Of a DNA stretch of 56,806 nt, positions 1 through 56,806 are shown one piece after another (within the stretch, counting starts at the first letter, position 1; the number at the start of each line of letters is the position of its first letter). The position numbers were made by a program, and so were the translations under genes. The notes below the pieces were generated by a model that did no database searches, was not told where the DNA came from, and saw only the letters and a list, made by a program, of their open reading frames with translations. Source of the DNA: a virus; the IMG/VR virus record IMGVR_UViG_3300017989_000017, positions 1 through 56,806 of that record. The stretch is one strand, 5' to 3'.

Positions 1-123
1 GCGTGTGGGCACGGCCTACGTCCCGACGTCGCAGAAGATCCTGCGTGCGACCGGCGCCATCACCGGCACGTTCACGGTCGGCGAGAACGTCTTCCAGCTG
101 ATCGACACGACCAGCGCGGCGAC
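1..123. repeat. Left copy of 123-bp terminal direct repeat
   Basis: Bases 1-123 are identical to the last 123 bases of the window (56684-56806). The repeat lies inside the tail tube gene and the reading frame is preserved across the join. This is what an assembler leaves at the ends of a circular or circularly permuted molecule. A genuine direct terminal repeat would more often sit between genes. Confidence 0.97.
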
Positions 124-15643: not shown

Positions 15644-16126
15644 ATGGACCTCAGGGAGCTAGCGGATATGGCTTCGGAGGAGTACCGCGCGACACGAGAG
15701 GATCGCGCGATGCTCTACGCTGCTTTGGACGCGCTCCCTGTCCCTTTCTGGATCAAGGAGCCCGACGAGAGAGACGGGCGCATGGTTTGGATCAACAACG
15801 CATATTCCCTGCGTTGGGCTGTCCCAAAGGAAAAATACGTTGGCGCTCGTGACTCTGAGGTCTGGGGTGCCGAGCTTGCCCTAACATTTGCAAGGAATGA
15901 CATGGCTGCACTCGAAGCTTCCCCGCGGCCCTACTTCACCGAAGAGCCTGTCCCCGAAGTGCCTGGTGACCCCCTGGAGGGTGCCCCGATCTGGCAGATC
16001 ATCAAGCAGTCCATCGAGTGGAAGGATCGCAGCTGTGTCGTGGGCATCGCCGTATTCGGCGGCGACGCTGCGCGGATGGTCGCGAAGCTCGGTGCCGTGT
16101 ACGGGGCAGGCGGTGAAACGCGATGA
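15644..16126 (+). CDS. Single PAS-fold sensory-domain protein
   Basis: This 160-residue protein has no signal peptide. Residues about 25-135 read as a PAS domain: 'ALDALPVPFWIKE', then 'GRMVWINNAYSLRW', 'YVGARDSEVWG', a helical connector, a long strand with 'WQIIKQSIEW' and a final strand 'CVVGIAVFG'. No kinase, cyclase, HTH or other output domain is attached. Codon use is less GC-biased at third positions than in flanking structural genes (many Ala GCT, Lys AAA and Pro CCA codons). That suggests a more recently acquired cargo gene. It overlaps the next gene by ATGA. The PAS call rests on pattern reading; its role in a phage is unknown. Confidence 0.6.
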   Translation: MDLRELADMASEEYRATREDRAMLYAALDALPVPFWIKEPDERDGRMVWINNAYSLRWAVPKEKYVGARDSEVWGAELALTFARNDMAALEASPRPYFTEEPVPEVPGDPLEGAPIWQIIKQSIEWKDRSCVVGIAVFGGDAARMVAKLGAVYGAGGETR

Positions 16127-18271: not shown

Positions 18272-19777
18272 CTAGGTGGTAGGAGTGATGGCGTCGAACT
18301 CGCGCTGCAGACGGCGCAGCGCGGTGTAGGCGTCGCAGTCGCCGGCGCACGACTCGAAGGTCTCGGTCACGCCGGCGCGGAGCAGGTTCTCCTTGGGGCG
18401 CTCGAACTGCCCGACATCCAGTCGGTACAGCTCGCTTCGACGAATCGTGCCGTCGCGCTCGTCGTAGAAGCGGATCAGCTTCCAGAGGCCGTCGGAGCCG
18501 TAGTCGCCGGTCAGGCCGCGACGGAGGAAGGTGAAGCCCGCCGACTGGAAGCCGTCCTCCGTGAAGATAGGCACGCCCTCGGGCGACCACTGCTCGGAGA
18601 GCGAGACGGTGCGACCGGTCGAGGCGCTGACGTCGGCCAGCGTCGCGGTGAAGTCGTTCGCGTCCTCGGCCCCGGTCAGCGTCTCGCCGTCGAGCGTGGC
18701 GATCGCGGCGCAGAGGTCGGTGGCGTTGACCAGGCCGTCGCAAACGCCCGTGTCGGAGACGTCGGCGCCGCGGACGATCAACGGGACCAGCGTGCCGGTG
18801 TCGTAGACCGTGCCCTTCGAGTTCTGGCCTAGCTCGGGCGGGACGACGACCTCGAAGTCGGGCCCGTTGTCGCCGGTGATCCAGATGGTCGTGTCGGTCG
18901 CGAAGTTGATGTCGCCCGACCCTTCGAGCGTCGAGATCAGTCGCGCGATCTCCGTGTCGAGAGCCTCCATGCCGAGGCGGATCAACTCCCAGCGGTACTC
19001 GTTCTCGTTGCGCAGGCCGAGCCCGGAGTACTGGTTGAAGAGCGACAGCGCTGAGATGCCGGCGTTGGGGTCGTCGTTGTCCTGTGCGTCGATGATGTGC
19101 TGACGGATGACTTGGGAACCCGCAGACAGGAGCGCCGCCGGGGGGAGGTGCAGCGGGTCGTGAACGGTGTTCATCGCGAGGTAGAGGACCCAGTCGCCGG
19201 ACTCACCCTGGACCCAGTCGATCGCATCATCGACGAGCACGGTCGGGTTGTAGTTGTCAGGGTTCTCGATGACGAACCCATCTTCGTCACGCTCCCCGAT
19301 CAATGCGGTCTTCGTGCTCGCGCTGTCGAAGCGATCCCAGTAGTAGAAGCCCATCGACCCGGAGCCGAGGACCGAGTTGCCCACCAGGTTGGCGAGCGGG
19401 CCGACGTAGCGGTCGAATCCCATATACCCGGTCGGGTCGAATCCGTTGCCGGCGTGGCCCAGGTGGAACTTCCCGATGAGCCCCCAGGGGCGCGAGTCCT
19501 GCGCGGGGATCCAACTCTCGGTGCCGTTGGGCAAGAGCGACGAGCTGAAGACGTTCGTGCCGATGCCGGTGCGCCAGGCCGCCTGCCCGGTAAGCCACTC
19601 GACGCGCGTCGCGCCGCACACCGGGTTCACGCGGCAGTTGGTGTAGCGGACGCCGGCGGTCGCGAGCGCGTCCATCGTCGGCGTCAGGGGCGGGCGTTCG
19701 ATCTGGATCTGCGCAGCGTAGGCGCCGACGCCTGCGATGCCGATGTCGTCGATGGAAAGGAAGATGGCTTTGCTCAT
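18272..19777 (-). CDS. Type I sulfatase with complete active-site motifs
   Basis: This 501-residue protein is a formylglycine-type sulfatase (alkaline phosphatase superfamily), which hydrolyses sulfate esters. Nearly all active-site positions are visible. D10-D11 in 'LSIDDIG' bind the metal. C54 in C-G-A-T-R is the residue converted to formylglycine, followed by 'VEWLTG'. K103 and H105 are in 'GKFHLGH', H206 is in 'NTVHDPLHLPP', D303-N304 are in 'TGDNG', and K321 is in 'KGTVYDTGTLVPLI'. Formylglycine motifs usually have Pro two residues after the Cys; here it is Ala, a variant associated with radical-SAM maturases. There is no signal peptide, so the enzyme is cytosolic unless packaged in virions or freed at lysis. 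It lies in a phage operon with a methyltransferase and a helicase. A sulfatase in a phage is rare. Confidence 0.92.
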   Translation of the reverse strand: MSKAIFLSIDDIGIAGVGAYAAQIQIERPPLTPTMDALATAGVRYTNCRVNPVCGATRVEWLTGQAAWRTGIGTNVFSSSLLPNGTESWIPAQDSRPWGLIGKFHLGHAGNGFDPTGYMGFDRYVGPLANLVGNSVLGSGSMGFYYWDRFDSASTKTALIGERDEDGFVIENPDNYNPTVLVDDAIDWVQGESGDWVLYLAMNTVHDPLHLPPAALLSAGSQVIRQHIIDAQDNDDPNAGISALSLFNQYSGLGLRNENEYRWELIRLGMEALDTEIARLISTLEGSGDINFATDTTIWITGDNGPDFEVVVPPELGQNSKGTVYDTGTLVPLIVRGADVSDTGVCDGLVNATDLCAAIATLDGETLTGAEDANDFTATLADVSASTGRTVSLSEQWSPEGVPIFTEDGFQSAGFTFLRRGLTGDYGSDGLWKLIRFYDERDGTIRRSELYRLDVGQFERPKENLLRAGVTETFESCAGDCDAYTALRRLQREFDAITPTT

Positions 19778-28022: not shown

Positions 28023-30281
28023 ATGAGCCACACCGAGACGCTGCACGGAGTCGTGCGGCGAGTGTTCTTCTGCAACCCCGAGAGCCCGTTCACGACGGGC
28101 GTGATCGAAACGAAGGAGCGTGAGGCGAAGTTCGCCGGCAGCTGCGTTGCGCAGGTTGGCGACACGATCACGCTCCACGGCCACTGGACCGAACACCCGA
28201 AGTTCGGTCGGCAGCTTCAGGTCGAGAAGGGCATCGTCAAGATCGACGAGAGCCCGGAGGCGCTCGCGAACCTGCTCGCATCACACGACGCTTTCGCCGG
28301 CATCGGCCCAGCGCGCGCGAAGAAGATCGCCGAGGCAGCGCAGCGAGTCGCTGAGTCCTCCGGCGGCGACCCGACCGACCTCACCTTCGCGATGACCCAC
28401 AAGCCTGAGGTCGTCGCGCAGATCGCCGGCGTGCAACCGGCGCTCGTGATCGAAGCGGCCGAGGAGTGGTCACGACGCAGCGAGTTCTACGGCGCGCTCG
28501 CGCAGCTCACCGAGCAGGGATGGACGCCCGCGCAGGGCGCGAAGATCCTCAAGAAGCTCGGCAACGGTGCGCCGCAGATGGTCGAGGGCGACCCCTACAT
28601 GCTGATCGGGCGAATCGCTCGCTTCGGCTTCAAGACCGTCGACGTCGTCGCGCGGAAGATGGGGATCGCATCCACCGACCCGATGCGCCTGCAGGCCGGC
28701 GTCGCCTACTGCCTGGACAAGATCGCCGAGAACGGCAGCACCTGGACGAGCTACGAGGCGCTGATCACGCAGGCGATGGAGGAGCTGAAGCCCGACACGC
28801 TGGAGGGCGAGAAGAAGATCCGCGAGGCCGCCGACGAGCTGATCACGACGGGGATCATCTACGTCGACGATTCGCCGGTCGGTACACAGGTCGTCGCGAA
28901 CGCGAAGCTCGCGCAGAAGGAGATCAAGGTCTTCGAGCTGATGCTCGCCGGCCTCGGGACGGAGGTCGCGCCGCTCGACTCGACCGAGGACTACGTCGCC
29001 GAGTTCGTCGCCTCGCTCAACGAGGGACAGCGCACCGCGCTGGAGGGCTTCTCGCACCGGCGCTTCTCGGTGGTCAGCGGAGGCGCTGGCGTCGGCAAGA
29101 CCTACACGATGCGCGCCATCTGCGAGGTCGCCGAGTCGAACGGGATGGTCGTCGAGCTGTGCGCTCCAACGGGCAAGGCTGCTCGGAAGCTCTCGCACGC
29201 GACGGAGCGCGAGTCTCGCACGATCCACAGGCTCCTGGAGCCCATCTTCGACGAGGGCGAGTTCAAGTTCACTCGCGGGAAGGACAACCCCGTCGAGGCT
29301 GACCTGGTCGTGGTCGACGAGGTCTCGATGGTCGACGTCCGGCTGATGTGGTCGCTCCTGATGGCGCTGCCGCCGCACTGCAGGCTGCTCCTGGTCGGCG
29401 ACCACCACCAGATCCCCAGCGTCGGACCCGGCGCGATCCTGCGCGACCTACTCGCCGCCCAGGCGAAGTACCCCGAGGCGGTGCACATCCTCTCCGAGGT
29501 CGTCCGCCAGGCCGGCGTGCTCGCGCGAAACACGACCGCGCTGCTGCACGGCGTCGTCGTCAAGGAGCAGAGCGAAGCCTGGGGGATCATGGAGACCGAG
29601 CGCGGGCACGTCGAAGGCTCGCCGGCGATGGTCGCGATGGCGGTCGAGTCGCTCTTGACCGCCGGACCGACCGAGCCTTTCAACCGCGACCTCGACTTCG
29701 CCTGGGACATCCAGGTGCTCGCGCCACAACGCAAGGGGCCGTTCGGAACCTACGCGCTGAACGTCGCGCTGCAGAAGCTCCGTCAGCGTCTGCTCGGCAA
29801 CCCGCCGCCCGAGGAGACGCCGGAGGGGAAAGCGCCGAAGCCGCTGGTCGGCGACCGCGTCATCTGGACGAAGAACGACTACCAGCTCGACCTCCTCAAC
29901 GGCACGCAGGCGATCGTGATGCAGCTGCTCAAGGGTGGGGCGATGAAGCTCTACACCGAAGACGGTCGCGAGGTGACGGTGCCGCCCGAGAAGCGACTGA
30001 ACGTCGAGGTCGCCTACGCGATGACGATTCACAAGTCGCAGGGGTCGGAGTGGCCGTGCGTCATGCTCATCGCGAGCAGCTCGCACTGGCACATGCACGA
30101 CCGCAACCTCCTCTACACCGGCGCGTCGCGCGCAGCGGAAGGGCTCACGATCATCGGCGACCGCACGGCGATGTCGAACTTTGCGAAGCAACAGAAGAGT
30201 GCCGCCCGCTGCACCTTCGGTGGCTTCCTGATCCACGGCTGGCGCTCGCAACAGAGCATCGAAAACGAGGTGTCCGCGTGA
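28023..30281 (+). CDS. RecD2-type 5'-3' DNA helicase
   Basis: This 752-residue superfamily 1B helicase has the RecD2 layout. An N-terminal OB-like and helix-hairpin-helix region (about 1-260) includes 'GIGPARAKKIAE', and a motor domain follows. Walker A is 'GGAGVGKTYT' (near 353-360). 'CAPTGKAARKL' (motif Ia), 'LVVVDEVSMVDVRL' (Walker B), 'LLLVGDHHQIPSVGPG' (motif III) and 'YAMTIHKSQGSEWP' (motif V/VI) can all be read. It probably unwinds DNA at forks or ends. Start at ATG 28023 with GAGGA upstream. It overlaps the next gene by GTGA. Confidence 0.93.
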   Translation: MSHTETLHGVVRRVFFCNPESPFTTGVIETKEREAKFAGSCVAQVGDTITLHGHWTEHPKFGRQLQVEKGIVKIDESPEALANLLASHDAFAGIGPARAKKIAEAAQRVAESSGGDPTDLTFAMTHKPEVVAQIAGVQPALVIEAAEEWSRRSEFYGALAQLTEQGWTPAQGAKILKKLGNGAPQMVEGDPYMLIGRIARFGFKTVDVVARKMGIASTDPMRLQAGVAYCLDKIAENGSTWTSYEALITQAMEELKPDTLEGEKKIREAADELITTGIIYVDDSPVGTQVVANAKLAQKEIKVFELMLAGLGTEVAPLDSTEDYVAEFVASLNEGQRTALEGFSHRRFSVVSGGAGVGKTYTMRAICEVAESNGMVVELCAPTGKAARKLSHATERESRTIHRLLEPIFDEGEFKFTRGKDNPVEADLVVVDEVSMVDVRLMWSLLMALPPHCRLLLVGDHHQIPSVGPGAILRDLLAAQAKYPEAVHILSEVVRQAGVLARNTTALLHGVVVKEQSEAWGIMETERGHVEGSPAMVAMAVESLLTAGPTEPFNRDLDFAWDIQVLAPQRKGPFGTYALNVALQKLRQRLLGNPPPEETPEGKAPKPLVGDRVIWTKNDYQLDLLNGTQAIVMQLLKGGAMKLYTEDGREVTVPPEKRLNVEVAYAMTIHKSQGSEWPCVMLIASSSHWHMHDRNLLYTGASRAAEGLTIIGDRTAMSNFAKQQKSAARCTFGGFLIHGWRSQQSIENEVSA

Positions 30282-30955
30282 TCGTCATGCCCGCCAACAG
30301 TACCGGCTGGCGCGTGAGTTGGCTGCAAGGCCGCTTCGGCGGTCTCGGCCATCTGTTCTCGCCAGGCGCGCAGCGAGGCCCCTATCCGCACATGCCGTAC
30401 GCACTCGACAACGGTGCGTTCCCTGCATTCACGAACGGCGTCGAGTGGCGCGAGGAGGCTTTCGTTGACCTGCTTCGCTGGGCCAGCCAGAACCCTGTTT
30501 CTCCTCGATGGGTGGTGGTCCCTGACGTGGTCGGCGAGGCCGAGCGCACGCTGGTCGAGTGGGCCAGGTGGGCGAGGAAGATCAGCGGCGACTACGGCTT
30601 CCGCATCGCGCTCGCTGTGCAGGACGGCATGGGCATCAAGGCGATCTCACAGCTACGCCCCCAGCCCGACGTCATCTTCGTGGGCGGCACAACGGAGTGG
30701 AAGCGAAAGACGATCCGCAAGTGGTGCAGGGAGTTCCCGCGCGTCCACGTCGGGCGCGTGAACACGAAACACTGGCTGTGGGAGTGCCATCACGCAGGCG
30801 CCGAATCGGTAGACGGGACCGGGTGGTTTCGGGGCGACCCGAAACAGCTCGCCGACCTCACGGACTACCTGCGCGAGAACGCGACCCAACAGCCGCTCAT
30901 GGTCCCCGATTGGCGCGACCTGTCTTCTACCCCCTTGCTCGACTTCCCCTCATGA
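30278..30955 (+). CDS. DpdA-like (TGT-fold) deazaguanine DNA transglycosylase
   Basis: This 225-residue protein resembles tRNA-guanine transglycosylase/DpdA TIM-barrel enzymes. 'YALDNGAF' (D44) stands for the TGT 'DSGGF' loop. 'VVVPDVVG' (D83), 'DVIFVGGTTEWK' and 'HHAGAESVDGTGW' (D179) follow the barrel order. DpdA enzymes exchange guanine in phage DNA for a 7-deazaguanine base. The next gene, overlapping by ATGA, is a QueE-like enzyme that makes a 7-deazaguanine precursor, which supports DNA modification rather than tRNA modification. It is short compared with classical DpdA and lacks an obvious zinc site. The start is taken as the GTG overlapping the RecD2 stop; an ATG at 30287 is possible. 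Confidence 0.72.
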   Translation: MIVMPANSTGWRVSWLQGRFGGLGHLFSPGAQRGPYPHMPYALDNGAFPAFTNGVEWREEAFVDLLRWASQNPVSPRWVVVPDVVGEAERTLVEWARWARKISGDYGFRIALAVQDGMGIKAISQLRPQPDVIFVGGTTEWKRKTIRKWCREFPRVHVGRVNTKHWLWECHHAGAESVDGTGWFRGDPKQLADLTDYLRENATQQPLMVPDWRDLSSTPLLDFPS

Positions 30956-31569
30956 AGGTTCACAGCACTTTTCTCACTGCCCAGGGCACTGGGCACCTCA
31001 CCGGACTTGAGCAGTTCTTCGTTCGTACCGCAGGGTGCTCGATCACGACCTGCCCCCTTCGACGGGTATGCGACGAGCCGGAAGCGCTCACCATTCGCAA
31101 TGCCGACGACGTTGAACCAGAGGCGCTCGCCGACGCCGCCCTCGCGGCCGTTGGGCCCGGCGGCTGGCTGCACATCACGGGTGGCGAGCCGATGGATCAG
31201 GCCGACGAGGTCGGTCGGCTTACAACCGAGGCTCGCGACCGTGGCCTGTTCGTCCACATGCAGACGTCCGGGCTTCGGCCAGTCGACTTCGCGTTCGACT
31301 GGCTCACGGTCTCGCCCAAGGGCGAGTTGGCGCAGACCTTCGGTCAGGAACTTGTCGTCGTCTATCGCGGGCAGCGAGCCGACGAACTCGCGGCGCTAAT
31401 GTCGGACACGTCGTTCTTCTACTACTACCTCCAGCCGGAGTGGGGACAGTCAGCTGATTCGGTCCTGCGGATGATCCGACACATGAACACGTCCCATCGT
31501 TCGCCGCACCACAACGGGCGACGGTGGATGCTCGGCATTCAAGCCCACAAGCACCTCGGAATTGAGTAA
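30952..31569 (+). CDS. queE: QueE-like 7-carboxy-7-deazaguanine synthase (radical SAM)
   Basis: This 205-residue radical-SAM protein resembles QueE, which converts carboxytetrahydropterin to 7-carboxy-7-deazaguanine. It shows 'FFVRTAGCS' as in QueE, and 'WLHITGGEP' (GGE motif for AdoMet, about 71-79). 'GLFVHMQTSG' and 'FDWLTVSPKG', the substrate- and AdoMet-binding strands of the family, follow. The cluster cysteines are C29, C34 and C40 (C-x4-C-x5-C) rather than C-x3-C-x2-C. This is unusual, as QueE is known to vary but not commonly this way. Coupled to the DpdA-like gene, it probably supplies the base for phage DNA. The other pathway enzymes (FolE, QueD, QueC) are absent here and would come from the host. 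Confidence 0.78.
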   Translation: MKVHSTFLTAQGTGHLTGLEQFFVRTAGCSITTCPLRRVCDEPEALTIRNADDVEPEALADAALAAVGPGGWLHITGGEPMDQADEVGRLTTEARDRGLFVHMQTSGLRPVDFAFDWLTVSPKGELAQTFGQELVVVYRGQRADELAALMSDTSFFYYYLQPEWGQSADSVLRMIRHMNTSHRSPHHNGRRWMLGIQAHKHLGIE

Positions 31570-31602: not shown

Positions 31603-34600
31603 ATGACCACAGCGAAACGAGAGTCGATCTATGAACGCCTACGTCCACACCTCAACGCCGAAGACCTCATCGCTCGACTCGGCATCGAGCACGTTCGAAC
31701 GCTCGGGAGCGAGGCTTACTGCAAGCCGCTCTGCCACGAGTCGTCCTCCGGCGAGTCGCTGCAGATCAACACCCACACCGGAAGGTGGAACTGCAAGGCG
31801 TGCCAGCACTCCGGGGTCTACGGCGACCTCGTGCAGCTCGTCGAGTACGTGCAGACCGGCGGCCAGCCGCCGCACCGAGGCCCCGACCAGGGGCGCAGCG
31901 AGACGCACCGGGCCGCGCTCGCTTGGCTCTGCCAGCAGTACGGCCTGCCCTTCGACGAGCGGCAGGTGCGCAGCGACGCGGGGCTCGACGTCGTCCACAT
32001 GGTCGCGATGCAGGCGCACGAGAACCTGCTCGCCGACGAGGAGACCCTCGCCTGGGTCCAGGAGAAGTGGGGCTTCGACCGCGCGACGGTCGAGCAGTAC
32101 GGGCTCGGCTACCTGCCGACGCCGCTGCTCCCCTCCGTCCTGAACGAAGCGGCGCGACCCGAAGCGCGCGGAGCCTTCAAGTCGTCGGGGCTCGGGTGGT
32201 ACGGCGCGAACAACTGGTGGCACACGCGGTTCGAGGGACGCGTCACGTTCCCCTACCTCGAACACGGCAAGGCGGTCTACTTGATCGGTCGCGCGACGCC
32301 GTGGACGCCCGCACCCGAAGCGGGGCGCCAAGCTCCGAAGTACCACAAGCTCTCGGTCCACTCCGAGCAGCGACCGTGGATCTCCGAGAGCGTCACGAAC
32401 GACCACCTCTACAACGAGCCGGTGATGTCGAGCGCTTCCGAGATCGGCATCGTCGAGGGTGTCGCTGACGCCGTTGCGCTCTCTGCCCTCGGTGTCCCCG
32501 TCGTCTCGCCGGTGACGATCAACTTCAACGCCGCCGACGAGGAGCGCTTCCTGCGGAAGTGCAAGGACAACGAGATCAAGTCGGTCTGGATCCTCTTCGA
32601 CAACGAGCTATCCGGCTCGGGCAACTGGGGAGCCAGGCGCACCGCGCTCAAGTTGATCCGCGGCGGGCTCTGCGTGAAGATCGTCACTCTTCCACTGGGG
32701 CCCGAGCAGCGCGCGGCGCGCGACGAGGTGCTGGCGAAGCTCGGAGCCGATCGCTTCGAGGAGCTGGAGCGAAGCGACCCGCGCGAGCGTTCACTGATCA
32801 TCGCCGAGGCCGGCGAAGCGTGGACGAAGGAAGAGCACGAGTGGATCGAGGCCCAGATCGAAGCCACGAAGATCGACGCCGCCGAATGGTGCGCGCAGGT
32901 CGGAGCGGGCGCGGCAGGGAAGTTCGACACCCTGCGGCGCGACGGGCAGGACGTGATCGCGCTGGAGATCGCGGACGTCGAAGTCGACGAAGACGCTGGC
33001 GCGGTCGAGCGCATCGGCGCCTTCGGCGAGGTGATCAAACTCATCGCCCACGTCGACGAGAGCCTGATGCGCCAGGAGTACTCCGGGCTCGTCGCTGCCG
33101 CCGCCGGCAAGGGCGTCTCGAAGGCCGAGGTGAACAAGCGGGTCTCGCGCTACCGCAAGGAGGTCTTGCAACCCGAGCGCAAGGAGGCCGAGAGGAAGAT
33201 GAAGGCGAGTGCCGCCGAGCTGGAGCGGGGACTGGTGGTGCTGCCGCCGGACCAGGGGCATGCGCAGCCCGCCGCTCCGACTGCGCCCGAGCAGCCTCAG
33301 CTGCAGGACGACCGCCCCGATGCTCCCGCTGCACCGTCTGCGCCGAAGCCTCCCGAGCTGACCGAACACGAGCGCTACCGGACGTGCCGTGAGGCGGTCG
33401 CTCGCGCGATCGAGGGAAAGCTCTCCGAGGAGGCGGTCGGGCAGTACGTCGCGCAGACGATCCTGGAGTCGATGGGCTTCACAGCCTTCCGCACCGCCGA
33501 CGACCTCTACCTGATCCGCGGCAACGAGCGCGTCCCGATGGGACGCAACTCTCCGACGCAGCTATTCAGCGACCTGCTCTACGTGTCCGGCGGGCTTACG
33601 AACAGGAAGACGTCGCACCGCGCCTACATCGCGGCGGTGATGTACTTCCTCGGGAAGGACGCCCGGCGAGTCCTCGACGTTTCCTGGTCGCACGTCAACG
33701 ACGAGGGCGTGGTGCACTTCCCGCTTGGCGACACCTTCGGTCGGATCCTTCGGATCTCACCGGGCGAAGTCGAGCTGATGCGCATGGCCGAGCTACAGGT
33801 CCCCGCCGTCGCCGGCGCAGAGTTCCAGCCTATCGAGTACGTCGAGAGCGGTGGCGGGATCGACGAGGCCCTCCGGGTCTTCGAGTGGGTCTCCCTGTCG
33901 CGCGGCGACCGGATGCTCCTGATCTACTGGCTGGTCTGCCTGCCGATCCTCCGGCGGGTCGGTACCATCCCGATCGTTCGGATCGAGGGCGGCAGCGCGA
34001 GCGGGAAGACGCGCGCGGTCGACGCGGTGTCCTTCCTCGTGAACGGGCAGAAGTCGTCGAGTGTCCCGACGGCGTCGGCGCTGACCTCACGGCTCTCCGC
34101 GAACATGCTGACGATCGACGACAACCGGGAGTCCGGCGACGTCTCGCCTTCGTTCCTCGGGACGATGCTGCAGGCGACGAACCTGGGCGCTCGCGAGAAG
34201 CGCCGGGCGAACACCGACACCGGCACCGTCGTCGAGCGCGTCTGCGGGGCCCTGCTCATGAACGGCATCGAGCCGATCCACGACGGGAAGTCGGAGCTGG
34301 CCTCGCGGATCCTGACGCTGCGCGCGGCGCGCGGGTACCGGGCGCCCGACTCCCCCTCCTCTGAGGCGAAGCTCGCCGCCGGCATCCGCTCCTGCAGGTC
34401 GGCCTTCTGGTCGGACGCCGCCCGGCGCTGCGCGGCGGCGCTCGCGCTCGACGAGGTCCACGGCGAGGCGCTCGGCGAGGAGATCGAGGAGCTGTTCGGC
34501 TCGACGAAGATCGGGCGGCTCGCCGCCTACCTGCGCCTGATGTACCTGGCCTGGGTCGCCGGCATCCCCGACGAGGAGCGGCAGGCGATCGCGCTCACCG

Positions 34601-35076
34601 AGCTGGCCGGGCCCTGGCGGGAGGCGTTCGGCCGCGTCGCGGGCGGCTCGCTCTCCTCGCTGCTCGCCGAGGAGCTGTCGGTGACGGCGCTCCGGTACGT
34701 CTTCGCCTACGGCATCGAGAACGCCCGGCCGGCCTACGACGGCGCGAGCACCATGCGCTCCTTCGACGGGAAGCTCACGCTCGACCCCGAGGCTGGCCTG
34801 GCCTACCTCGGGCCGCTGTCCGCGCGCCACCTCGCGCGGCTGGTCCGGCTCGCCGCGAAGGAGATGAACGGCCCCCAGGCGCTCTCGGGCTCGCTGCGGG
34901 CGGGGCAGCTGGAGGAGCGGCTCGTCGACGGCCGGGGCTTCATCGAGGCCGACGGGATGGCCGTGGTCATCGAGACGACCGGCCGCGGGCGGCGGCGGTT
35001 CAGCTTCAGCCGCCCGCTGAAGGACTCCGAGGGCCCTGGGACGCCCCCGCGCCCCGAGGAGGGCTGGACCCCGTAG
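31603..35076 (+). CDS. Fused primase-helicase
   Basis: This 1157-residue replication protein starts with a CHC2-type zinc finger (C40, C44-H45, C64, C67). A TOPRIM primase domain follows ('EIGIVEGVADAVALSALG' near 280 and 'VWILFDNELSGSGNWG' near 325). A DnaG-like helical region and a Pro-rich linker (about 540-590) lead to an ATPase domain with Walker A 'GGSASGKT' (about 797-804) and 'MLTIDDNRESG' downstream. It would both lay primers and unwind DNA at the fork. No phage DNA polymerase is present, so the host replisome must be used. The last third has strongly GGG/CCC-biased codons unlike the first part, suggesting a fused or recombined module. Confidence 0.87.
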   Translation: MTTAKRESIYERLRPHLNAEDLIARLGIEHVRTLGSEAYCKPLCHESSSGESLQINTHTGRWNCKACQHSGVYGDLVQLVEYVQTGGQPPHRGPDQGRSETHRAALAWLCQQYGLPFDERQVRSDAGLDVVHMVAMQAHENLLADEETLAWVQEKWGFDRATVEQYGLGYLPTPLLPSVLNEAARPEARGAFKSSGLGWYGANNWWHTRFEGRVTFPYLEHGKAVYLIGRATPWTPAPEAGRQAPKYHKLSVHSEQRPWISESVTNDHLYNEPVMSSASEIGIVEGVADAVALSALGVPVVSPVTINFNAADEERFLRKCKDNEIKSVWILFDNELSGSGNWGARRTALKLIRGGLCVKIVTLPLGPEQRAARDEVLAKLGADRFEELERSDPRERSLIIAEAGEAWTKEEHEWIEAQIEATKIDAAEWCAQVGAGAAGKFDTLRRDGQDVIALEIADVEVDEDAGAVERIGAFGEVIKLIAHVDESLMRQEYSGLVAAAAGKGVSKAEVNKRVSRYRKEVLQPERKEAERKMKASAAELERGLVVLPPDQGHAQPAAPTAPEQPQLQDDRPDAPAAPSAPKPPELTEHERYRTCREAVARAIEGKLSEEAVGQYVAQTILESMGFTAFRTADDLYLIRGNERVPMGRNSPTQLFSDLLYVSGGLTNRKTSHRAYIAAVMYFLGKDARRVLDVSWSHVNDEGVVHFPLGDTFGRILRISPGEVELMRMAELQVPAVAGAEFQPIEYVESGGGIDEALRVFEWVSLSRGDRMLLIYWLVCLPILRRVGTIPIVRIEGGSASGKTRAVDAVSFLVNGQKSSSVPTASALTSRLSANMLTIDDNRESGDVSPSFLGTMLQATNLGAREKRRANTDTGTVVERVCGALLMNGIEPIHDGKSELASRILTLRAARGYRAPDSPSSEAKLAAGIRSCRSAFWSDAARRCAAALALDEVHGEALGEEIEELFGSTKIGRLAAYLRLMYLAWVAGIPDEERQAIALTELAGPWREAFGRVAGGSLSSLLAEELSVTALRYVFAYGIENARPAYDGASTMRSFDGKLTLDPEAGLAYLGPLSARHLARLVRLAAKEMNGPQALSGSLRAGQLEERLVDGRGFIEADGMAVVIETTGRGRRRFSFSRPLKDSEGPGTPPRPEEGWTP

Positions 35077-44914: not shown

Positions 44915-44990
44915 CTCGGGGTGGCGCAGTTGGCAGCGTGCTCGGCTCATAACCGAGAGGCCGCCGGTTCGAATCCGGCCCCCGATACCA
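44915..44990 (+). tRNA. tRNA with CAU anticodon (Met or Ile2)
   Basis: A full 76-nt cloverleaf can be drawn. The acceptor is CTCGGGG/CCCCGAT, the D-arm GCGC/GCGT and the anticodon arm CTCGG-CTCATAA-CCGAG with CAT at 44948-44950. The T-arm is GCCGG-TTCGAAT-CCGGC, and the CCA end is encoded at 44988-44990. The first acceptor pair is a C-T mismatch, as initiators have a 1-72 mismatch. The D-stem C11-G24 pair and the 29-41 C-G pair are elongator-like. Whether it is elongator Met, initiator, or lysidine-modified Ile tRNA cannot be settled from sequence. Confidence 0.92.
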
Positions 44991-56081: not shown

Positions 56082-56806
56082 ATGGTTCTTCTCACTCAAC
56101 GGAAGCAGCTCGGGCTGAAGATCGAAGCCGTCGAGGGCACGCCCGAGACGATCACGTCTTCCGAGCTGGTCACGGTTCTCTCTCCGAACCCCACCATCAA
56201 CCTGAACAACGTCCGTCGCCCGGTGCTGCGCGGCACGTTCTCGAAGCTCGCTTCGCTGACCGGCATCCAGGACGCCGCGCTCTCCTACCAGCAGGAGTTC
56301 GCGGGCAACCTCGCCGGCGACCCGACCATCGCCCCGGCCATCGGTGTCTCGATGAAGGCGTGCGGGTTCCGCGAGGTCGATCTCTACGCGGTCGAGATCG
56401 CGTCGTTCACGGGCGACCGCGTCGTCGTCGGCGACATCCTCACCGGCGACAACAACGCGTCGGGCACGGACACCGTCCGCGTCATGGCGACGATGAAGAA
56501 GGACACGTTCGACGACGCCGGCGGCGACAAGAACACGCACGCCGACATCCTCTTCTTCGAGCAGCTCACCGGCGCCCTCACCTCGTCCGACACGTCGCTG
56601 ACGTGCCTGAACCCGAACCTCGCGGTCGGCGTCTCGCACTCGCTCGCGGCTCCGGTGCTCGGCCTCTCGTCGCAGACCCCGACGCGTGTGGGCACGGCCT
56701 ACGTCCCGACGTCGCAGAAGATCCTGCGTGCGACCGGCGCCATCACCGGCACGTTCACGGTCGGCGAGAACGTCTTCCAGCTGATCGACACGACCAGCGC
56801 GGCGAC
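56082..56806 (+). CDS. Major tail (tail tube) protein, N-terminal part
   Basis: This is the 5' end of the tail tube gene that continues at position 124 of the window (see 1-940). The ATG at 56082 is 13 nt after the tail terminator stop. The visible N-terminal part has 'LTQRKQLGLKIEAVEGTPET' and 'INLNNVRRPVLRGTFSKLAS', a typical start of phage tail tube subunits ('LG.K.E...GT'). The reading frame runs unbroken into the terminal repeat and matches the frame at the other end, which shows that the two pieces are one gene. Confidence 0.82.
   Translation, partial: MVLLTQRKQLGLKIEAVEGTPETITSSELVTVLSPNPTINLNNVRRPVLRGTFSKLASLTGIQDAALSYQQEFAGNLAGDPTIAPAIGVSMKACGFREVDLYAVEIASFTGDRVVVGDILTGDNNASGTDTVRVMATMKKDTFDDAGGDKNTHADILFFEQLTGALTSSDTSLTCLNPNLAVGVSHSLAAPVLGLSSQTPTRVGTAYVPTSQKILRATGAITGTFTVGENVFQLIDTTSAA
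56684..56806. repeat. Right copy of 123-bp terminal direct repeat
   Basis: Identical to bases 1-123. Removing one copy leaves a 56,683-bp circle with the tail tube gene intact. Confidence 0.97.

Follow-up and report, generated by a model that had tools for sequence, protein, structure and literature searches.

Among the closest described relatives of the system studied here are those of phages CAjan and Rosebush, which encode the transglycosylase DpdA together with the full FolE-QueD-QueE-QueC set for 7-deazaguanine synthesis. In CAjan the deletion of dpdA removes dPreQ0 from the DNA, which becomes cleavable, so that dpdA is essential for the modification (PMC6884629). For phage Bipper, which lacks QueC, the insertion of 7-carboxy-7-deazaguanine (CDG) has been considered (PMC6884629). 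Here we have analysed a stretch of 56,806 nucleotides, positions 1 to 56,806 of the IMG/VR virus record IMGVR_UViG_3300017989_000017 (hereafter the window), which carries on its + strand a small DpdA-like gene of the tRNA-guanine transglycosylase (TGT) superfamily followed by a gene for a QueE-like radical S-adenosylmethionine (SAM) protein. The pathway is the same as in CAjan and Rosebush, but the window encodes its QueE step only. Phages with DpdA and QueE are already known as such. A role of the pair in the 7-deazaguanine pathway is well supported, and we consider it likely that both genes constitute a shortened cassette for the modification of phage DNA. Beyond what an initial annotation of the window had proposed, the analysis reveals a non-canonical QueE clade, an altered active site and recurrent DpdA-QueE pairs in either gene order.

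Results

The first gene of the pair (30278-30955, + strand, GTG start, stop included) encodes a protein of 225 aa that was not recognised in Pfam and NCBIfam searches. It matches phrog_15826, a PHROG annotated with unknown function, at an E-value of 3.3e-34, and on its own shows a weak match to the queuine tRNA-ribosyltransferase family phrog_887. In a scan of the family (n=50 aligned members) phrog_15826 was matched by 50/50 and phrog_887 by 39/50, with a best E-value of 1.7e-6. The motifs DNGAF, VPD, QDGM, GGTxEWK, VHxxRxN and ES-DGTG are invariant or nearly so in these 50 sequences. Comparison of the family profile with CAjan-type DpdA by hhalign gave a probability of 97.2% and an E-value of 3.4e-11, with D44, D83, H157 and D179 of the 225-aa protein aligned to D63, D105, H187 and D206 of CAjan DpdA. 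By analogy these residues may have catalytic roles: D44 (codon 30407-30409, motif DNGAF) and D83 (30524-30526, motif VPD) are invariant in the 50 sequences, H157 (30746-30748, motif RVHxxRxN) is conserved in more than 90%, and the invariant D179 (30812-30814, motif ES-DGTG), all on the + strand, is the candidate nucleophile.

The two proteins thus share superfamily, conserved Asp/His positions and linkage to 7-deazaguanine synthesis genes, although CAjan DpdA (Escherichia phage CAjan, AJT60520) has 306 aa against 225 aa and the window family stands in a separate PHROG (15826). Pairwise BLASTP between the two gave no significant match, and their relationship is visible through profiles only. 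The small 'DpdA-like' proteins Phegasus gp54, Aoka gp40 and ReqiPine5 gp03 belong to the family of the window TGT, with ~30-37% identity over the matched parts; their partner is a YhhQ-type transporter, pointing to salvage, instead of the QueE found in the window. Further subfamilies, DpdA3 and DpdA4, are reportedly described by Cui et al. 2023 in a network of DpdA1-4.

An AlphaFold2 model of the 225-aa protein was obtained with a predicted local distance difference test score (pLDDT) of 91.8. Among the 50 matches listed in a fold search of the Protein Data Bank (PDB), TGTs have the highest template modelling (TM) scores, up to 0.58 with a root-mean-square deviation of 4.5-5, whereas Cap10 (9ntn) reaches 0.53-0.54 and barrels of other kinds score 0.44-0.52. 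In a viral fold library the named matches are mostly queuine tRNA-ribosyltransferases, and they include a 464-aa protein of nt-1 whose length fits nt-1 DpdA2 (464 aa). The initial annotation had described a compact TGT-fold product and had named a predicted structure outside that fold as refuting; the prediction, once run, did not refute the proposal, TGTs scoring highest among the matches listed. The fold scores alone (0.58 vs 0.52) are insufficient to separate a TGT from a generic TIM barrel, an identity which is ruled out by the phrog_887 matches, the alignment to CAjan-type DpdA and the gene linkage. It is therefore supported that the 225-aa product is a small DpdA-like member of the TGT superfamily, related to CAjan DpdA.

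This linkage was assessed on 60 non-redundant loci gathered by the TGT-like protein alone and afterwards searched for pathway genes. At least one 7-deazaguanine gene is present in the fetched flank of 27/60 loci, always on the same strand and in 24 of them at a distance of at most 300 bp; over the 60 loci QueD occurs 20 times, QueC 7, QueE 5, YhhQ 3 and FolE once. The locus L048 shows the operon order QueD-TGT-QueE-QueC, its TGT being 51% identical to that of the window and its QueE of the canonical CX14CX2C type. A YhhQ-family (PF02592) gene adjoins or closely precedes the small TGT in ReqiPine5, Aoka and Phegasus (L146:6192-7342, L147:3861-5345 and L002:11367-12597; Rhodococcus, Arthrobacter and Mycobacterium phages), and YhhQ is a preQ0 transporter (PMC6884629), suggesting that these phages may salvage preQ0-like bases. 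The linkage to synthesis genes and to YhhQ thus ties the small TGT to both the synthesis and the uptake of 7-deazaguanines.

Other features were seen around these loci. QueD directly follows the small TGT in L072, L077, L079, L087, L094, L101 and L107, with neither QueC nor QueE found in the flank, so that these loci represent a further arrangement with part of the pathway. PAPS-reductase-like genes lie near the small TGT or the variant QueE described below (L146:7436-8350, L050:3555-4379, L123:1790-2569, L001:13466-14509). A homologue in Erythrobacter phage ZS04 (L003:6004-6645) is annotated as a 'DarB-like antirestriction protein' and is by homology a small DpdA-like TGT.

The second gene (30952-31569, + strand, ATG start, stop included) encodes a protein of 205 aa which matches TIGR04508 with 74.7 bits and an E-value of 8.9e-21 over model positions 2-208 of 208, and the sequence of the QueE crystal structure 4njg with an E-value of 9.4e-13; QueE is also the top PDB fold match. 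The protein is homologous over its full length to the QueE of Burkholderia multivorans (CX14CX2C, TIGR04508) and of E. coli (EcQueE; CX3CX2C). In EcQueE numbering it keeps Q13, R27, the three cysteines, G94, S136 and Q189, as well as the motifs TGGEP, SPK and the C-terminal Q-HK. Its structure model was built on an alignment of 7 sequences and has a mean pLDDT of 60.7, falling below 50 in the cysteine loop.

Several observations weigh against a DNA-modification cassette built from these two proteins. The score of 74.7 bits is far under the TIGR04508 equivalog cut-off of 240 bits, and the cysteines are spaced C29-X4-C34-X5-C40 (31036-31071, + strand; alignment and motif survey), in disagreement with both canonical patterns. 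Alignment further indicates that three conserved active-site residues are replaced: the substrate ligand E15 by T13 (codon 30988-30990), the Mg ligand T40 (PMC11142719) by E42 (31075-31077) and the Glu of the ETNG motif by Q104 (31261-31263), all on the + strand. Because of this low score, the cysteine spacing and the three replacements, CDG synthesis is not assured. As to the TGT, the family profile gave no alignment by hhalign with the single sequences of E. coli Tgt and of nt-1 DpdA2 (YP_008125322; probability 0.24%), which makes the small TGT a distant, separate branch, and the PADLOC DpdA model did not match the 225-aa protein. In 33/60 small-TGT loci no pathway gene is present in the flank, many flanks being short. 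The phage Orion, with DpdA only, shows no modification (PMC6884629). The modified base in the DNA of the window phage is a predicted one, and its synthesis would depend on 6-carboxy-tetrahydropterin (CPH4) from a putative Q pathway of the host.

The QueE-like partner proposed in the initial annotation is hence retained as a homologue, but not as a canonical enzyme. In E. coli QueE, R27A abolished the formation of queuosine-containing tRNA (Q-tRNA), and E15A and T40A, when overexpressed, did not (PMC11142719). The replacements thus point to a site that has been remodelled and need not mean that function is lost.

The distribution of this variant was analysed in a set of 73 phage QueE proteins, collected by scanning viral contigs with both a motif and a profile, with a quickly built tree in which the cysteine-motif columns were retained. 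In this tree the 22/73 proteins with a long second cysteine gap form one group with a Shimodaira-Hasegawa-like approximate likelihood ratio test (SH-aLRT) support of 97, and the QueE of the window falls in a 10-member subgroup with a support of 98. The spacings in the clade are CX3CX5C and CX4CX5C, plus CX4CX9C, read by eye, in L174, L180, L181 and L176. The position of E15 holds T or S in 10/10 of the window subgroup vs E in 50/51 outside the clade; 18/22 clade members have E in place of the Mg ligand T40, where 48/51 of the others have T/S, and 15/22 have Q in place of the ETNG Glu, a position that is E in 51/51 others. In the papers searched, which did not include Cui et al. 2023, we found nothing on this CX3-4CX5C clade, on the substitutions in its active site or on its negative association with QueD and FolE. 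Unusual spacings also occur elsewhere: L220, L234 and L240 constitute a second unusual group with CX5CX6C which, unlike the window clade, keeps FolE and QueD, and CX15CX3C and CX16CX3C are found in L226 and L237.

The clade differs from the other loci in its neighbourhood too. Within 6 kb of QueE, FolE is present in 0/22 clade loci vs 41/51 others, QueD in 1/22 vs 47/51 and QueC in 11/22 vs 29/51. Fisher values for these contrasts take the members of a single clade to be independent and are therefore not read as probabilities. Searches of the whole records, many of which are fragments, returned FolE in 0, QueD in 1 and QueC in 11 of 19 further records; in the first set of loci FolE was absent from the whole records and QueD appeared solely in L048, outside the clade. 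In L106, L127, L165, L167, L169, L173, L175 and L179 the QueE of the clade has both QueC and a TGT or DpdA as linked genes, and the gene order varies between loci: TGT-QueC-QueE (L167, L169, L173, L175), QueE-QueC-TGT (L106, L165), DpdA-QueC-QueE (L127, L176), DpdA-QueE (L181), TGT-QueE (the window, L158, L160, L186, L187, and L153, where the pair is on the minus strand) and QueE-TGT (L050, L125). Since the genes have stayed linked through such reshuffling, there is good reason to think that their products work together. DpdA-QueE pairs without QueC occur in both gene orders (L050, L125, L153, L158, L160, L181, L186 and L187), and no QueC was detected in the whole records of these pair loci. 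As this includes the records of L158, L186 and L187, of 35-53 kb, the QueC-free pair is recurrent.

In the window the pair sits in a replication module. The start codon of the small-TGT gene (GTG, 30278) shares bases with the TGA that ends the upstream RecD2-type helicase gene (28023-30281, + strand; phrog_4412, E 2.7e-114), and the start codon of the QueE-like gene (ATG, 30952) forms ATGA with the stop of the small-TGT gene (TGA, 30953-30955). Both overlaps are consistent with translational coupling. A gene for a primase-type replication protein lies downstream (31603-35076, + strand; phrog_47, E 6e-40). The GC content by codon position is 0.65/0.49/0.83 in the 225-aa gene and 0.68/0.46/0.77 in the 205-aa gene. 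This periodicity, the phrog_15826 family match and the matches to the QueE model and to 4njg rule out chance open reading frames (ORFs) for both genes.

An exact 123-bp direct repeat links the termini of the window (1-123 = 56684-56806), and an ORF starting at 56082, of the 512-aa class, stays intact across the joined ends, so the window is probably a complete, circularly assembled phage genome of ~56.7 kb with 67.7% GC. FolE, QueD, QueC, QueF and YhhQ were not found in the window by family searches that were positive in control genomes, and the repeat and the ORF across the junction make the missing pathway genes absences from an apparently complete genome; the lack of FolE, QueD and QueC noted in the initial annotation is thereby borne out. 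The terminase and the capsid match phages that infect many different hosts, at 24-32%, and thus allow no host assignment. The window further contains a sulfatase-family gene (PF00884, E 5e-15; 18272-19777, minus strand) beside tail genes, a gene (15644-16126, + strand) for a small protein whose fold matches PAS_4 and one tRNA-Met(CAT) gene (44915-44990, + strand) between terminase and portal.

Discussion

We propose that FolE and QueD of the host would supply CPH4. From this the QueE variant of the phage, which is a radical SAM protein with a CX4CX5C motif, would make CDG, as suggested by homology and linkage. The small DpdA would then exchange guanine for the 7-deazaguanine base, a TGT-type exchange to which homology, fold and linkage point and for which DNA is the presumed substrate. 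The inserted base might be CDG itself or preQ0 made by the host QueC, and CDG insertion is the more parsimonious since the phage is devoid of QueC. By analogy with phages such as CAjan, DNA modified in this way would be resistant to host restriction. Entry into the pathway at the CDG step, as anticipated in the initial annotation, fits these data, and in relatives these enzymes are found alongside QueC and QueD. Phages with dCDG or dDG, which share the pathway and a DpdA-type insertion, are reportedly described by Cui et al. 2023 (listed in PMC13329287).

The alternative that comes nearest to this proposal keeps the cassette and changes the base: the phage QueE would boost the flux and the host QueC, with or without QueF, would finish the synthesis of preQ0 or a later product. 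We regard this as possible, although somewhat doubtful. Half of the QueE clade, 11/22, has its own QueC beside QueE and TGT, a proximity that makes preQ0 the likely product in these phages, and the DNA of CAjan and Rosebush carries dPreQ0 (PMC6884629). The absence of QueC from the window and from the whole records of several DpdA-QueE pairs speaks against it, as does its need for a preQ0-proficient host. Unlikely, in our view, is a QueE-like protein that performs other chemistry, its altered cluster loop and substrate/Mg site accommodating a substrate other than CPH4. The replacement of E15 in the window subgroup, and of T40 and the ETNG Glu in most of the clade, would agree with such a change, and the scarcity of QueD and FolE in the clade would then be explained as well; nevertheless the variant retains its three cysteines, the SAM residues, Q13 and R27, the last being the residue without which E. 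coli QueE is inactive, the overexpressed E15A and T40A enzymes still yield Q-tRNA (PMC11142719), and the linkage to QueC argues for CDG as the product of the variant. A broader proposal, which we hold as an unlikely speculation, is that the CX3-4CX5C clade has rebuilt its cluster loop and metal/substrate site so that a 7-deazaguanine is made from a non-canonical substrate or by a non-canonical route, feeding a stand-alone small DpdA and leading to DNA with dCDG or an undescribed 7-deazaguanine.

The target of the transglycosylase must also be considered. TGTs are primarily tRNA enzymes, and in type IV CBASS (cyclic oligonucleotide-based antiphage signalling system) Cap9 and Cap10 are QueC-like and TGT-like enzymes using 7-deazaguanine, Cap10 being a remodelled TGT that binds a deazaguanylated protein N-terminus (PMC11996544). 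The barrel of Cap10 is similar to that of the window TGT and is among the top PDB matches listed, so that host tRNA or a protein might be modified instead of DNA. This appears improbable to us: TIM-barrel matches at a TM-score of ~0.5 are not specific, the small-TGT profile matches the DNA enzyme of CAjan, and the gene is located in the replication module. An identity with Cap10 itself, whose system modifies a protein N-terminus, was rejected, neither protein having a PADLOC match and no Cap9-like QueC-family gene being found in the window; CdnD was not searched for specifically. Finally, the absence of FolE, QueD and QueC, together with the unmodified DNA of the DpdA-only phage Orion, could be taken to mean that the pair is a decayed, inactive remnant of a longer pathway. 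We consider such a remnant very improbable, given two intact ORFs, motif residues of both proteins that are kept in divergent relatives, and a two-gene arrangement that several phages share in one order or the other.

If the DNA-modification cassette proposed here is correct, two genes would be enough for a phage to hijack the 7-deazaguanine pathway of the host, QueE being the point of entry. One would then expect dCDG in the DNA of those phages that combine DpdA with the variant QueE and have no QueC. The variant clade, whose phages lack FolE and, with one exception, QueD, keeps R27 and the SAM site, but has other residues in place of E15, of T40 as Mg ligand and of the Glu in ETNG. It thus offers a natural case in which to ask how much the cysteine spacing of a radical SAM enzyme and the metal/substrate site of QueE can vary.

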